A stretch of DNA of 37,447 nt from Desulfomonile tiedjei. Lineage in GTDB: Bacteria > Desulfobacterota > Desulfomonilia > Desulfomonilales > Desulfomonilaceae. Shown piece after piece: positions 11,389 through 26,874 of this stretch. Below the pieces are notes generated by a model that saw only the letters and a program-made list of their open reading frames with translations, did no database searches and was not told where the DNA came from. Position 1 is the stretch's first letter, and the number at the start of each line of letters is the position of its first letter. The stretch is from the NCBI GenBank assembly GCA_016212935.1, contig JACRDE010000395.1, positions 1 to 37,447 of the forward strand, in the 5' to 3' direction. The translations under genes and the position numbers were made by a program.

Positions 11389-12579
11389 CTAATGAACTGT
11401 GCATATTGCGCTGAGCGCGTCTCTTCCAAATGGAGATATGGACCTCAGGAATTCTATGATTCCCGGGAGTTCCCGAACCACGAATTCTATCTCCTCCTCA
11501 GTACTGAATCTTGAAAGAGAAAACCTGATCGACCCGTGAACTGCAGTGAACGGTACGCCCATTGCGCGTAATACGTGGGAAGGTTCCAGCGAGCCGGAGG
11601 TGCAGGCTGATCCTGAAGAGGCGCAGATCCCCTTTTCATCCATTCTCATCAAAATGGCTTCCCCTTCCACGTACTCGAACCCAATACTGAGAGTGTTCGG
11701 GAGCCGCCGTTCCAGATGACCGTTCACGCGACAAGCTGGAATTCTCTCGAGAAGGGCCTTTTGAAGTCGGTCGCGAAGCTGACGTACACGGGTGTTCTCT
11801 TCCACCAGATTCTTCCTGGCCAATGCCGCAGCGGCGCCAAGGCCTACTATGCCTGGTACGTTTTCCGTACCGCCTCGGCGATCAGACTCTTGATGGCCTC
11901 CAATGACAAAGGGGGAAAATCTGGTTCCCTTCTTGATATACAGAGCACCTATGCCTTTTGGCGCGTGGAGCTTGTGGCCGGACAAAGCCAAAAAGTTGAT
12001 GTTGGACTCAGACACCTTAATGGGAATTTTCCCTACTACTTGCACGGCGTCCGTATGCATCAGGGCGCCATGTTCCTGGGCGATTTCAGCTATTTCATCT
12101 ATGGGAAAAATCACTCCGGTCTCGTTGTTGGCCCACATTACGGACACAAGAGCGGTCTCGTCGGAGATTTTGTTGCGCACCTCATTCATATCCAGCATTC
12201 CGTCTTTGTCCACTGAAAGCCAACGGACAATGTATCCTTTGGTACGAGCAAGATGTTTGCACAGGTTCAAGACCGCAGGGTGTTCTACTCGAGTCGCGAC
12301 GATTTCGCGTCTACCCGGGTTGGTGGCCAATGCGCTGAGAATGGCAGTTGAATCCGATTCGGTACCTCCTGAGGTATATACTATCTCCTGTGGGGATGCC
12401 CCGAGCAGTTCTGCCAGAGATCTCCTTGCAGCTGAAACCTCTCTCGCTACGCTTCCGCCGAACGAATGCATACTGGAAGGATTACCGTAGCGCTCTGTAA
12501 AGTAAGGTCGCATGGCCTCAAAAACCTCAGGAGCGACCTTCGTTGTAGCGTTATTGTCCAGGTAGACGACCTTTTTCAT
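11389..12579 (-). CDS. nifS: Cysteine desulfurase, NifS type
   Basis: [61 protein letters not shown]. Confidence 0.95.
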
Positions 12580-13421
12580 GCCGCCACCTCCTCAACGAAG
12601 AGGTCCGGGTGCACCAGTTCTCTCAGTTTTGCCTCGATTCCTCCTTTTGTAAGTGAGGAACTTGGGCAGGAGGTGCACATTCCTCGCAGAGCGACCAGCA
12701 CTCTATTGCCGTCGAGATCCACCAGTTCCACATCTCCTCCATCCTGTTGGAGCATTGGGCGGATCTCCTTTTCTATTACGTCTTGTATCTTTGCGATCTT
12801 CTGAAGATTCGTCATTCTGGGGGCAGGCTTTTCGGTCTTGGGCTCCTGCTTGCGCTCTCCCCGAACCTGTTGAATTATCCCAGCGATCTTTTCGTGGCAC
12901 AGTCCGCACCCACCGCCGGCTTTGGTGTAATGGGTCACCTGCTCCACAGTGGTTAGATTGTTGGCTTTTACTTCGTGCCTGATCTGCTCGTCGGTGACGC
13001 CGAAGCATTCACAGACCAATTGGCCCTCAAGTTCTTCGCTTGGAGCCGGTTGACCTCTATAACAGGCCACAGCGGCGTGGAACGCGTCGCGTCCCATTAC
13101 CGAGCAATGCATTTTTTCTTGAGGCAGTCCGCCGAGGTATTCCGCTATGTCCTGATTTGTAATTTTCAGAGCTTCGTCAACGGTTCTGCCTTTTACCATT
13201 TCGGTGAGCGCGCTGCTGGACGCAATTGCACTGCCGCACCCGAACGTCTGGAATCTTGCATCAACGATCTTCTCGGTTTCAGGGTCTATTTTCAGGAAAA
13301 GTTTCAAGGCGTCTCCGCATGCCAGGGAGCCCACTTCCCCCACCGCATTGGCGTCTTCTAGTTCTCCGATATTCCTGGGATTAAAAAAATGATCTTTCAC
13401 TTTGTCGCTGTATTCCCACAT
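12576..13421 (-). CDS. nifU: Fe-S cluster assembly scaffold NifU (IscU-type N domain, BFD-type [2Fe-2S] domain, Nfu C domain)
   Basis: N domain [30 protein letters not shown]; middle [12 protein letters not shown]...[12 protein letters not shown]-terminal GMCTSCPSS. Overlaps nifS by 4 nt. Confidence 0.95.
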
Positions 13422-15574: not shown

Positions 15575-16498
15575 CTAGCCGGCGATTCTACCGAAAAAAT
15601 CGATCTGGTGGGCTATGTACACAAGCCTGCCCTCTTCTATTTGCCTGTGTCTATCCTCGATCCATCGGCCAAAAGGAACGGAGTCGAGTTCAGGATGCTC
15701 TGAGAGAGCGAGGCCCATTGTGTGCACTATAAAATGAAGAAAATATGCTTCGTCTTCTCTGTAGCCCTTTGAGCCGGCGAAGACTACCCAGTCTGACGGT
15801 CCTGCCTCAAGAATTTCGGCTCCAGCTTCCCTGGCATGCTGGAAAAAATGCCTGCCTGTACGGCTGTCTCCGGACAATCTACCTTTTATTACTCGTTGAT
15901 CCATGGTCCTGTGGTACAGAAGCTCTATCTTGGAATCTAAGGCCTTTTGGATCTCTGGCTGCAGAATGGTAGCCCCGTCAAAATTTATCGTGAAATAAAA
16001 CATCCCTCCCGGCTTAAGCATCGAGAACAGGTGCGGAAGCACAGCGGGTACGTCAACAAGATCCAGGAAAGCGTTCGCGATAAGGAGGTCCCATGACAAT
16101 TTGTTCTCTTCATTCTCCATAAACTCCAGCACGTCCGCAGTTACAGGTTTGACGAAGATTTCGCTATTCCCTCGACTCAGCCGGATGCGTCGCCTATCCG
16201 CAGAATACTCGTAGTTGCGTCTGATGGCCCAGTTCGGAAGGCGACCAAAAACCTCAGCAGTGTTTTCGGATTGAGAGTCAACGCAGGTGTAATCAGCCCG
16301 CTTGAGCAGGCCCCAGTCAATAGCCCTCTCGACCATGGTGCCTATGCCAGAGCCAAGCTCCAGGACCCTGAGCGTCTCGGGGCCGGAGGAAACCTCAGCA
16401 GCAAGCCTTTCCCAGACTGATTTGTTCAGGCTTCGGTCATCGACACTCTTCTTTGACGACAAATATCGGGCAAACGTGTATTCTTGCGGCTCGGGCAT
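15575..16498 (-). CDS. Class I SAM-dependent methyltransferase
   Basis: LRVLELGSGIGTMVERAI motif I and LLIANAFLDLVD. Last gene of the five-gene operon. Confidence 0.85.
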   Translation of the reverse strand: MPEPQEYTFARYLSSKKSVDDRSLNKSVWERLAAEVSSGPETLRVLELGSGIGTMVERAIDWGLLKRADYTCVDSQSENTAEVFGRLPNWAIRRNYEYSADRRRIRLSRGNSEIFVKPVTADVLEFMENEENKLSWDLLIANAFLDLVDVPAVLPHLFSMLKPGGMFYFTINFDGATILQPEIQKALDSKIELLYHRTMDQRVIKGRLSGDSRTGRHFFQHAREAGAEILEAGPSDWVVFAGSKGYREDEAYFLHFIVHTMGLALSEHPELDSVPFGRWIEDRHRQIEEGRLVYIAHQIDFFGRIAG

Positions 16499-16500
16499 TT

Positions 16501-17580
16501 CTATTTCACCATCTCCGAAAGAAAATTCCGTATCTTTTCAGCACTGTCGTGCCAAGTGGGGTGGACGGCATATCGGTCGAGAGCTGCGAGGCTCATGTTC
16601 TGCAGCATATCTCTGTCTCGAATCAGTTGGTCGACATAGCCGGCTATTGAATCAATATTTCCAGGAGTAACCAGAAATCCGTCCTTGCCGGGAGTGACAA
16701 TCTCGCGTGCTGCCCCTACATTGCCAGCCAAGCAAGGAAGTCCGAACCCCATGGCCTCCAGATAAACGATTCCAAAGCCCTCATAGGATGAAGGAACAGC
16801 GAGAAACTGGTTTTGACCGTACCTCTCAATAAGACCCTGGCGGTCAAGGACCCCTAGCATGCGAACATTCTTGCCGATGGCCTGAGTTTCCACGATGCGG
16901 TGTATCATGGCGACGTAGTCCGGATCGGATTCGAGACTCCCCACCACATCCAATTTCCACGCGTCCAGTGGGAGGCGAGCAAGCGCCATGAGCAGAGTAT
17001 GGAGTTCTTTGCGTTGGATGAGGCTTCCAACGAACAATATGCGCAAGGGGCCCGGTTCTAATGATTCTTGCGAGATCCGGTTGACAGAGGGCGGCGGGCT
17101 TCCTGCGTCACGGCCGGGATACGCGATAACAGAACGATTGCAGCTTCCGATAAGCTCCTCGACTGTGGAACGAGTGGTCGCGCTGTTAAAAACGTAGCCG
17201 TCGACACGGGAAAGGTAGTCTCTCTCAACAATCCCGTACAGCCGATTTTTCCAGGCGGCTCTCTGTTCGCTGCATCTCAGGTGATGAACTATGGACACAA
17301 TTGGATAGCCCGCATTGCGCTTGAGCAAGCGATTCCCAATGAACAGCGAAGGATGGTTCAACTCGTCTTGCAGAAGAACATCCAGCCGCGCTCCCGACAA
17401 CGCGCGCCAGAATCGCGAGGAAGCGTTGTCCAGCAGATGCCGTCCGTACGTGCGCCACGGCAATGGGAAGATTTCCACCGTATCGCCGCAGGAACGGAGA
17501 TGCTCCACGAGCATCCGGTCATACAGGAAGCCGCCTGTAACAATTTCCAAATGGCCGTAAATTACCAGACCGACTATCAA
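16501..17580 (-). CDS. Glycosyltransferase family 4-like (GT-B)
   Basis: LRILFVGSLIQRKELHTLLMAL, SSYEGFGIVYLEAMGFGLPCLAGNVGAAREIV. Confidence 0.92.
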   Translation of the reverse strand: MIVGLVIYGHLEIVTGGFLYDRMLVEHLRSCGDTVEIFPLPWRTYGRHLLDNASSRFWRALSGARLDVLLQDELNHPSLFIGNRLLKRNAGYPIVSIVHHLRCSEQRAAWKNRLYGIVERDYLSRVDGYVFNSATTRSTVEELIGSCNRSVIAYPGRDAGSPPPSVNRISQESLEPGPLRILFVGSLIQRKELHTLLMALARLPLDAWKLDVVGSLESDPDYVAMIHRIVETQAIGKNVRMLGVLDRQGLIERYGQNQFLAVPSSYEGFGIVYLEAMGFGLPCLAGNVGAAREIVTPGKDGFLVTPGNIDSIAGYVDQLIRDRDMLQNMSLAALDRYAVHPTWHDSAEKIRNFLSEMVK

Positions 17581-17972
17581 GGACGCTCTCGACGAAACGA
17601 AGCCCAGGCGATCTCGTTTTCCCAGATTTTCACTGTGACCGCATTGATGTTCCGTGCACTTATTCGTTCGGAAAATGAATCACAGAATATTCTGGACAGA
17701 TGCTCTATGCTTGGGTTCAGGCTGCTAAATTCAGGCAATTCGTTCAAGGTCTTGTCGCGGTAATACGCGACCAGCGCATCCAACTGGGTCTCAATATCTA
17801 CAATGTCTACCAGATAACCGTGCTGATCGAGTTCCGTTCCCTCAAGCAGCACCTCAACCCGGTAATGATGAGAGTGGCGCTGATTCTCATCGCCCCAGTC
17901 TCCTCCGAAAAGAAAATGCTGCGCTACGAAATCGCGCTGTACCGCTACGGTATAAAATGAGCCATTATTCAT
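17577..17972 (-). CDS. 6-pyruvoyl-tetrahydropterin synthase / 6-carboxytetrahydropterin synthase (QueD) family protein
   Basis: Candidate Zn ligands in FVAQHFL and RHSHHY, terminal KIWENEIAWASF. The catalytic Cys expected before the HxH pair is absent (GDENQRHSH). Confidence 0.82.
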   Translation of the reverse strand: MNNGSFYTVAVQRDFVAQHFLFGGDWGDENQRHSHHYRVEVLLEGTELDQHGYLVDIVDIETQLDALVAYYRDKTLNELPEFSSLNPSIEHLSRIFCDSFSERISARNINAVTVKIWENEIAWASFRRERP

Positions 17973-17973
17973 A

Positions 17974-19014
17974 CTAGTCCTCGTATGTAAGAATCACTTG
18001 TATCGCGTTCTCCGGCTGTTCATCGAGCAGTTTGTATGCTTCCGAGACTCGGGACACATGGAACCTGTGGGTGATCAGGCTGGAAGGTTTCAATCTCTCA
18101 AGCATCCTCAATGCCAGCGTCAAACGGCGGGATTTGGTCCAAAGACCGGTGAATTCCGGCGCCAGGGCGCTCACCTGACTGCTGATCAGCTTTATTCGGC
18201 CCCTGTGAAAACGGCCGCCGAGGTCTATCGCCGCCCTCTTGCCACCGTACCATGAACCGATGACTACCCTTCCCCCAAATCCGGCTGCCGATATTGCAGT
18301 ATCCAAAGCAGCGGGATTTCCGGAGAGTTCGTAAACCAGGTCGGCCCCTGAGCGAGAATGCTCTGCTCCCAACAGCTCCAGAATTCTCGCCGACAGCTCA
18401 GGATCTCCAGGATCGAGGGCGCAAGCTCCGAGCGCGGAGGATTTTTCACGCCTCAACGGGTATTTGTCAAGTGTAACAAGTAGCTGCAAAGGAAAGCCTG
18501 CCAACAGGCCGGCAGTCAGCAGGCCCACTATTCCCTGCCCTATGATCAGAACCCTCTCTCCGATAATGGGCCGTCCATCCATCAGGAAGCTTACCGCAGT
18601 CTCCATATTCGGCAGAAATGCGGCTTCTTCAGCAGACAACTCAGGTGGGACTGGAATCAGGTGCTCAGGCGGTGATGCGAAATAACTTCGGTGCGGATTG
18701 AAGGAAAACACGATCTGTCCCAGCCAATTCCGATCCACCGAGGCACCGGTCTCGATTACCTTTCCAACGCATGAATAACCGTATTTCAAAGGGTACGCGA
18801 ACTTGCCAGCCAAAGATGGGATCGAATCATCTACCGGCAGATCCGCAGGCCAGAGCCCTCTGTACAAGAGCATTTCAGTGCCCGGACTTATCGCGGAGCA
18901 GAGGGTCTCCACCAGGACGTTATTTCTCGGCAGGTCTGGAAAAGGTTCTTCGACTGCAGCTACAGCGTAAGGCGCTCTGAATTCAACAGAAAGGTTCTTC
19001 ATTTGTTTGAGCAA
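17974..19014 (-). CDS. Medium-chain (MDR/zinc-type) alcohol dehydrogenase family protein
   Basis: SAISPGTEMLLYRG, YGYSCVGKVIETG, VLIIGQGIVGLLTAGLLAG, GGRVVIGSWYGGKRAAIDLGGRFHRGRIKLISSQ. Confidence 0.88.
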   Translation of the reverse strand: MLKQMKNLSVEFRAPYAVAAVEEPFPDLPRNNVLVETLCSAISPGTEMLLYRGLWPADLPVDDSIPSLAGKFAYPLKYGYSCVGKVIETGASVDRNWLGQIVFSFNPHRSYFASPPEHLIPVPPELSAEEAAFLPNMETAVSFLMDGRPIIGERVLIIGQGIVGLLTAGLLAGFPLQLLVTLDKYPLRREKSSALGACALDPGDPELSARILELLGAEHSRSGADLVYELSGNPAALDTAISAAGFGGRVVIGSWYGGKRAAIDLGGRFHRGRIKLISSQVSALAPEFTGLWTKSRRLTLALRMLERLKPSSLITHRFHVSRVSEAYKLLDEQPENAIQVILTYED

Positions 19015-19036
19015 CAGGGAGTATTAATATGGCGAC

Positions 19037-19738
19037 TTACGTCAGGTCGCCCCAGAGAATCAGATCTTCTCCCAACCATCTGTGCCCCGGATTCAACACA
19101 CGGGGGAAGCTCTCAGGAGCGTTTGCTCTCAGGTCCTTCACGGCCCTGAGTCCCCCGACCATTACCGGAGCAACAGTCAGAACAATGTAATCAGCCAGCT
19201 TCTCCAGTAAGAAATTCGTGATTATCCCCGATCCACCTTCAACCATCAGACTTCTGATTCCCATTTCGCCGAGCATGTCCAGCATAGCCGAAAGATCCAC
19301 CATAGTCCCAGACCTCGTGGGGACTGCGTGAACTTCCGCCCCTGCCGCTTCTACCGCTTTGAGGCGATCGTCACCGTAATTACCCGTTGAAATGATGATG
19401 GGACGGCGTGAATCCTGATTCAGCAGATTGGAGTCAAGTGGGAGTCTCAAGCGACTGTCCACAACCACAGGCCTTGGGTTCTTGCCATGCACGAGCCGGA
19501 CGTTTAGCCTGGGATTGTCCGAGAGTACGGTTCCAATGCCAACAAGAATCGCGTCGTGACTGGCTCTCAATTGATGTGTGAGTGTGAGGGACTTTCGCCC
19601 GCTTAACGGTAAAGCTTCGCCAGGCTTCGCGGAAATACACCCATCAAGACTCTGGGCATAACTGAGAGTAACAAAGGGACGCCGAGTTCTATCAAAATGA
19701 TTCTTAGAAAGAGCGAGAAGAGATTTAAGAAAATCCAT
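19037..19738 (-). CDS. RibD C-terminal/DHFR-fold reductase (stand-alone)
   Basis: RPFVTLSYAQSLDGCISA, LRASHDAILVGIGTVLSDNPRLNVR, SLMVEGGSGIITNFL. Start moved to internal Met MDFLKSLLAL. Confidence 0.88.
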   Translation of the reverse strand: MDFLKSLLALSKNHFDRTRRPFVTLSYAQSLDGCISAKPGEALPLSGRKSLTLTHQLRASHDAILVGIGTVLSDNPRLNVRLVHGKNPRPVVVDSRLRLPLDSNLLNQDSRRPIIISTGNYGDDRLKAVEAAGAEVHAVPTRSGTMVDLSAMLDMLGEMGIRSLMVEGGSGIITNFLLEKLADYIVLTVAPVMVGGLRAVKDLRANAPESFPRVLNPGHRWLGEDLILWGDLT

Positions 19739-19946
19739 GCCACAAAAAAATAAAACGGCTCCCGCTTGATTACTGTCGGCCGAATTACCCACTAGTAAAT
19801 CTCGGCTCGGAGCGGAACACTATCACGATGTTTGTAAACATACAAGATTCTTTATTCACGCACTGGAAGCATTCAGCCACGTGTCGGAAATGCTCAACTC
19901 GGAATGCGATCTTTCAACTACTCGGCGCATCGAGGCTCCTCGACAT

Positions 19947-26501: not shown

Positions 26502-26520
26502 GGCGGACCTCGTGTGGAGT

Positions 26521-26874
26521 CCGGGGGGGCGGTAAGCCGAATTCTGTTCCCGACAAATCGGGTGGCGATCATTCGTCTAGGACGACGGTCTCCCGCCGTC
26601 TCGAGCGACCTACCCGGAAGCATCGGACGGGCCATCCTTAACGCTTCCCTATTTGGTCTTGCTCCGGATGGGGTTTACCAGGCTCACGTGTTACCACGAG
26701 AACCGGTGAGCTCTTACCTCGCCATTTCACCCTTACCCCCCTTTCGGGAGGCGGTATATTTTCTGTGGCACTTTCCTTGGGGTTACCCCCACCGGGAGTT
26801 ACCCGGCATCCTGCCCTATGGAGTTCGGACTTTCCTCCCGCGTTGTTACGCCGGCGATCGCCTCACCCCCCCAG
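26521..26874 (-). ncRNA. rnpB: RNase P RNA (bacterial class A)
   Basis: Plus strand shows the reverse complement of conserved 5' gaggaaagtccgaactcc and 3' acagaattcggcttac. A 7-bp G/C P1 helix joins 26523-26529 and 26866-26872. Ends are approximate. Confidence 0.93.

Follow-up and report, generated by a model that had tools for sequence, protein, structure and literature searches.

The window, a 37,447-nucleotide (nt) stretch of Desulfomonile tiedjei DNA (GenBank assembly GCA_016212935.1, contig JACRDE010000395.1), carries five closely spaced minus-strand genes. They encode a RibD_C-type reductase, a medium-chain dehydrogenase/reductase (MDR), a protein with the 6-pyruvoyltetrahydropterin synthase (PTPS) fold, a family 4 glycosyltransferase (GT4) and a class I S-adenosylmethionine (SAM) methyltransferase. 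The analysis supports the view that these genes are one conserved biosynthetic unit, tightly co-inherited across distant bacteria and haloarchaea. They probably, though far from certainly, form the core of a pathway that diverges from riboflavin synthesis downstream of GTP cyclohydrolase II (GCH II) and yields a specialised metabolite or a cofactor. An earlier note on this DNA had read the genes as an operon that makes a glycosylated, methylated pterin from dihydroneopterin triphosphate. That interpretation is partly supported: the biosynthetic set, including the glycosyltransferase and methyltransferase, is borne out by its conservation in relatives, mostly in the same order, while the proposed substrate is not supported. 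In the open-access literature, no paper on the full cassette or its product was found, only remarks on the neighbourhood of the PTPS-IV subfamily.

Gene layout and conservation of the cassette

The five-gene set in the window was confirmed. All five open reading frames (ORFs) are intact and in frame, and they are separated by 22, 1, -4 and 2 nt, the negative value being a real 4-nt overlap of the PTPS and GT4 genes, as had been noted earlier. Together they span positions 15575-19792; the previously proposed start at 15575 holds, but the end at 19738 corresponds to an internal ATG of the RibD_C gene, which begins with GTG at 19792. Genes were assigned using Pfam and NCBIfam profile matches. No riboswitches were found near the cassette across six loci, and in promoter and terminator scans the terminator count did not exceed that of shuffled sequences and the promoter matches were mostly intragenic.

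A PTPS alignment was used to scan 84,980 species genomes, which yielded at least 546 confirmed relatives; the best 80 of these come mainly from Chloroflexota and relatives of Desulfomonile. Clustering of neighbouring ORFs gave RibD_C-MDR-PTPS-GT4-methyltransferase as the dominant arrangement. Desulfobacterota and Chloroflexota mostly keep this order, while it is rearranged in Pseudomonadota, Streptomyces and haloarchaea. Among dereplicated loci with enough flanking sequence, the PTPS gene is accompanied by GT4 in 77 of 87 loci, the methyltransferase in 72 of 87, MDR in 65 of 78, RibD in 42 of 78 and GCH II in 39 of 78, while none of the cassette neighbour genes are present at four QueD-type PTPS loci. 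Because the gene order is kept in relatives that were picked by PTPS similarity alone, the grouping is not a chance one.

The cassette is also found on annotated plasmids, where MDR-PTPS-(GT4)-methyltransferase sets are present in haloarchaea, Streptomyces, Rhizobium, Agrobacterium, Neorhizobium, Methylosinus, a rhodobacterium and Thiodictyon, usually with RibD, GCH II or a CDP-alcohol phosphatidyltransferase close by. One Streptomyces plasmid (L130:8010-8405) carries a PTPS of the FGPAQ type without a surrounding cassette.

Co-inheritance was examined in 148 Desulfobacterota genomes, in which MDR and PTPS are present in an identical set of nine (nominal hypergeometric p of 1e-14, with relatedness ignored). 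In four of these nine (G047, G084, G119 and G176) the two genes lie on separate contigs, and in two of the four RibD lies beside MDR. In 151 Chloroflexota genomes, the window-type PTPS is present in 12, with MDR in 11 of them and within 4 kb in 10. In 17 further genomes with MDR whose loci were read, nine have RibD-MDR-PTPS-GT4, three RibD-MDR, one GCH II-MDR and four none of these neighbours. The nine RibD-MDR-PTPS-GT4 loci (L156-L160, L164, L166, L167 and L169) are from Chloroflexota and encode a different PTPS variant, mostly FGPA..HGH, which is intermediate between the window type and the FGPAQ type. In addition, the five core proteins have correlated pairwise distance matrices (rho values of 0.49-0.83), and none of 500 permutations was as high.

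GTP cyclohydrolase and the RibD_C reductase

The link to riboflavin synthesis comes from the relatives. In Anaerolineae, GCH II (PF00925) is encoded directly upstream of RibD_C or fused to it; one example of such a fusion is a 436-aa Chloroflexota protein (L057) with both PF00925 and PF01872. GCH II also adjoins the cassette in Rhizobium and Agrobacterium and is near it in Streptomyces. The tyrosine equivalent to Tyr105 of Escherichia coli is kept in all 37 GCH II motif matches from the loci retrieved. The Streptomyces copy, which is outside the reach of this motif, has methionine at this position. Work on SCO6655 reportedly showed that such a methionine makes the enzyme stop at formylaminopyrimidine (FAPy). 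Haloarcula has GCH III (PF05165) as its cyclohydrolase. Streptomyces and haloarchaea have FAPy-type cyclohydrolases in place of GCH II, and the differing first enzymes (GCH II, FAPy-forming cyclohydrolase and GCH III) point to the same early intermediate pool. A creatininase in Streptomyces was considered as an ArfB-type deformylase and is not relied on, as it scores better as MftE-like.

Since many relatives have a GCH II gene ahead of the cassette or fused to RibD, the precursor is likely the product of GCH II, the diamino-ribosylamino-pyrimidinone phosphate that is formed first in vitamin B2 synthesis, rather than dihydroneopterin triphosphate. FolE was not seen in the neighbourhoods that were read. 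The earlier remark that no riboflavin genes explain the set is correct for the window but fails for the family, in which GCH II belongs to the cassette.

The window RibD_C gene (19037-19792, minus strand) encodes a DHFR-fold pyrimidine reductase with a match to PF01872 alone (1.5e-43, 149 bits); it does not have the deaminase domain of bifunctional RibD. Its closest PDB matches are riboflavin-type pyrimidine reductases. Among the best are the archaeal and fungal 2,5-diamino-6-ribosylamino-pyrimidinone 5'-phosphate reductases (2azn and 6p8c), which are likewise free of a deaminase. The archaeal diaminopyrimidine-phosphate reductase model TIGR01508 gives the top equivalog-type NCBIfam score, although its 134 bits fall short of the cut-off of 186. 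Together with the fusion of RibD_C to GCH II in Chloroflexota, these matches make it probable that the protein reduces the GCH II product. Unlike the archaeal and fungal enzymes, it is encoded in a cassette with GT4, methyltransferase and PTPS genes, and the host has a separate RibD for riboflavin. This host genome, which is 86% complete and belongs to the Desulfomonile group, encodes a single GCH II protein (403-aa frame; probably RibBA) and a full-length RibD, the second RibD_C match lying in a 403-aa frame on contig C317. The reservation that the RibD-like protein might be the only riboflavin reductase of the cell can thus be set aside.

The PTPS-fold protein

The central gene of the cassette (17577-17972, minus strand) encodes a PTPS-fold protein (COG0720; PF01242, 1.5e-26) that is PTPS-IV-like and has the motif ExxxHSH. 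The zinc ligands His19, His33 and His35 and the pterin-anchoring Glu118 are kept. The catalytic cysteine of QueD is replaced by Glu29 and the Asp-His dyad by Arg-Asp, and the catalytic Cys, Asp and His are absent from all cassette PTPS proteins of the window's clade. The AlphaFold model, for which plasmid-locus rows were left out of the alignments as for the other structure models, has a predicted local distance difference test (pLDDT) score of 93.3; it is closest to SCO6650 (PDB 3d7j, template modelling score 0.88) and then to QueD. A pterin or pyrimidine is a plausible ligand in this model because the zinc ligands and Glu118 are kept and the fold is closest to SCO6650 and QueD.

Comparison with the known PTPS classes points away from their chemistry. 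PTPS-I/QueD proteins have CxxxHGH with the Cys and the Asp-His dyad, as is seen in the QueD of a complete genome from the same genus (L046; CExxHGH and DH), whereas the window protein has ExxxHSH and Arg-Asp. The cysteine of the PTPS-II motif for tetrahydrobiopterin (CxxxxxHGH) is missing from its motif region. In comparison with the folate-bypass motif of PTPS-III (ExxHGH), the glutamate is one residue further upstream, and position 30 is Asn. By the known residues, QueD, PTPS-II or PTPS-III chemistry is not plausible.

The closest solved structure by both sequence and fold, SCO6650 of Streptomyces coelicolor, is a PTPS-IV protein. The FGPAQ signature of this subfamily is not present as such: the aligned letters are WGDEN in the window, mostly WG[APS]EN in relatives and PGPEG in haloarchaea. 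Shared with PTPS-IV are the alignment of FGPAQ to WG-EN, the loss of the QueD catalytic residues and the presence of the same cassette genes around FGPAQ-type members. The zinc site differs, as the window protein has all three histidines (HSH) whereas in Streptomyces and Pseudomonadota the FGPAQ members show HGA, with one of them lost; Glu29 is at a position where FGPAQ-type PTPS-IV has Ala. A PTPS-IV neighbourhood with PF00925 and PF01872 has been noted computationally (PMC5445326). In the present family, PF01872 is in the operon and PF00925 is in many relatives, with none in the window. PTPS-IV has been tied to coenzyme F420 by an unpublished remark only, and the role of PTPS-V has been left unclear (PMC5041015).

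Six relatives, the complete same-genus genome (G001) and G005, G006, G008, G009 and G012, have a close PTPS plus a distant second one. G001 carries two cassette-type PTPS proteins and a third, QueD-type copy (L046). The second cassette-type copy (contig 1, around 847.6 kb; L029:8555-8956) is 69% identical and lies apart from the other core genes.

The dehydrogenase, glycosyltransferase and methyltransferase

The MDR gene (17974-19014, minus strand) encodes a BchC-like dehydrogenase that apparently has no catalytic zinc ligands. In the alignment to 6ie0 the GHE of zinc-dependent members is GYS, and the cysteine region reads SPGTE. ADH_zinc_N matches just under its cut-off (1.1e-6). The NCBIfam models for BchC and threonine dehydrogenase agree with the MDR assignment, the best being TIGR01202 for BchC, the bacteriochlorophyllide hydroxyethyl dehydrogenase, with 72 bits against a cut-off of 291. 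Unlike the setting of BchC, the cassette has no bacteriochlorophyll genes.

The glycosyltransferase (16501-17580, minus strand) is a GT4 retaining enzyme with PF00534 (Glycos_transf_1, 3.2e-33, 115 bits) and the E-x7-E motif; E267/E275 and R190-K191 are invariant in 25 homologues. The closest structures are generic sugar or sugar-phosphate glycosyltransferases, and the PDB matches give no clue to the acceptor. The methyltransferase (15575-16498, minus strand; PF13489, Methyltransf_23, 8e-7) has a family-specific C-terminal part and a SAM motif, E47-G49-G51-G53, that is invariant in 28 homologues. Its model (pLDDT 93.7) matches generic class I methyltransferases, without a clue to the substrate.

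Proposed pathway and product

Starting from the gene content, order, co-inheritance, residue changes and GCH II link described above, a series of reactions and a product can be proposed. GCH II would form 2,5-diamino-6-ribosylamino-4(3H)-pyrimidinone 5'-phosphate; in this host the enzyme is probably RibBA, and relatives would use a dedicated GCH II, one fused to RibD or a cyclohydrolase that forms FAPy. The stand-alone RibD_C would then convert the ribosyl to a ribityl side chain, and because this step proceeds without deamination, the 2-amino group typical of pterins would be retained. The MDR dehydrogenase may oxidise or reduce a side-chain alcohol or ketone. The PTPS-IV-like zinc protein, its catalytic site being altered, would act on the pyrimidine or pterin, perhaps by ring closure, aldol chemistry or tautomerisation, after which GT4 would attach a sugar and the methyltransferase would methylate the product. 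For the product, a glycosylated, methylated pterin-like compound is a reasonable guess.

CDP-alcohol phosphatidyltransferase (CDP-OH_P_transf), LPG_synthase_TM, DUF420 and cytochrome b561 proteins recur in the loci of relatives, and the Rhizobium and Agrobacterium cassettes also have a flippase-like protein and cytochrome b561. In the window, genes for the first four are not beside the cassette. Because such membrane-protein genes recur in relatives, a membrane connection of the product is suggested. An unlikely extension of this is that the product is a previously undescribed redox cofactor or lipid that derives from guanine, is glycosylated and methylated and is common to distant bacteria and haloarchaea; the CDP-alcohol phosphatidyltransferase would anchor it in the membrane and LPG_synthase_TM export or flip it, with cytochrome b561 and DUF420 as partners. 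An OpgH/MdoH glucan glucosyltransferase gene adjoins the cassette, beside MDR, on Methylosinus and Neorhizobium plasmids (L135 and L142).

Under the proposed pathway, the PTPS-IV-like orphan subfamily gains a defined place and a testable starting point across hundreds of genomes. A common mis-annotation is corrected as well, as public records label these genes as 6-carboxytetrahydropterin synthase or queuosine biosynthesis. The cassette is present in cultivable hosts, including Rhizobium, Agrobacterium, Methylosinus, Streptomyces, Haloarcula and Desulfomonile, so that knock-outs and metabolomics are feasible.

Alternative explanations

Several points weigh against a glycosylated, methylated product of a riboflavin-branch pathway. 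GT4 is absent from some haloarchaeal and rhodobacterial loci and a methyltransferase match is absent in three of the nine Desulfobacterota genomes; therefore, glycosylation and methylation are not universal. The closest matches of GT4, the methyltransferase and MDR are generic and do not tie them to a pterin. GCH II is absent from the window operon, so that the link is drawn from relatives, and RibD_C may have come to act on a different substrate. The distance correlation between the core proteins is in part due to the shared ancestry of the host genomes.

In the reading of the earlier note, PTPS turns the FolE product dihydroneopterin triphosphate into a 6-substituted pterin, pterin reduction is the task of MDR and RibD_C, and GT4 together with the methyltransferase leads to a cyanopterin-like glycoside; this reading is improbable. 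Cyanobacterial pterin glycosides exist, and the PTPS fold, intact zinc site, Glu118 and co-inherited GT4 and methyltransferase fit it; as in the cyanopterin or tetrahydrobiopterin glucoside pathway, a GT4 would act downstream of PTPS. However, that pathway relies on FolE, PTPS-II and sepiapterin reductase, whereas the cyclohydrolase associated with the cassette is GCH II or III, with RibD_C fused to GCH II; the catalytic residues are lost across the clade, and Glu29 misses the PTPS-III position by one residue. Cyanopterin is also unsupported as a model: the match to tetrahydrobiopterin glucosyltransferase (BGluT, PDB 5ze7) is a generic GT4 match among many others, far below the top-scoring Tll1590 and MshA-type enzymes. 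A housekeeping role, in which PTPS is the cell's QueD or a folate bypass of the PTPS-III kind and its neighbours are incidental, is very improbable. No PTPS besides the window copy was found in the 86%-complete host genome, though QueC is present. In the same-genus complete genome, which is the closest complete relative, a CExxHGH QueD coexists with two cassette-type proteins. This coexistence, the five further relatives with close and distant PTPS, the TIGR03367 (QueD) score of 45 against a cut-off of 89 and the conserved, co-inherited neighbours all speak against it. The missing QueD of the host probably lies in an assembly gap, and a dual role of the window PTPS in the cassette and as QueD is a slim possibility.

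A flavin or F420 branch, with RibD_C as an auxiliary riboflavin or F420 reductase and a modified flavin or lumazine as product, is quite unlikely. GCH II and RibD_C are riboflavin-pathway enzymes, and the published PTPS-IV neighbourhood (PMC5445326) agrees with such a branch, but deaminase, lumazine synthase, riboflavin synthase and CofG/H were not seen among the recurrent cassette genes, and the host has its separate RibD and RibBA. There is a similarly small chance that the cassette serves envelope glycosylation, PTPS being non-catalytic or acting on an unrelated small molecule while GT4, the methyltransferase, the CDP-alcohol phosphatidyltransferase and flippase-like proteins build a glycolipid. 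The recurrence of CDP-OH_P_transf and LPG_synthase_TM proteins in many relatives and the generic nature of the GT4 matches are in line with this. The co-inheritance of GCH II and RibD_C with the core and the retention of the zinc site and anchor glutamate in the window's clade speak against it.

Other features of the window

Away from the cassette, the window contains two neighbouring Gate-domain membrane proteins (PF07670; 2051-3198, minus strand) that resemble a spore-maturation A/B pair. A NifU/NifS-type pair for Fe-S assembly is encoded at 11389-13421 (minus strand): a NifU-like scaffold with NifU_N, BFD 2Fe-2S and NifU domains, and after it a cysteine desulfurase. The gene for a bacterial class A RNase P RNA is located at 26517-26874 (minus strand, 326 bits).

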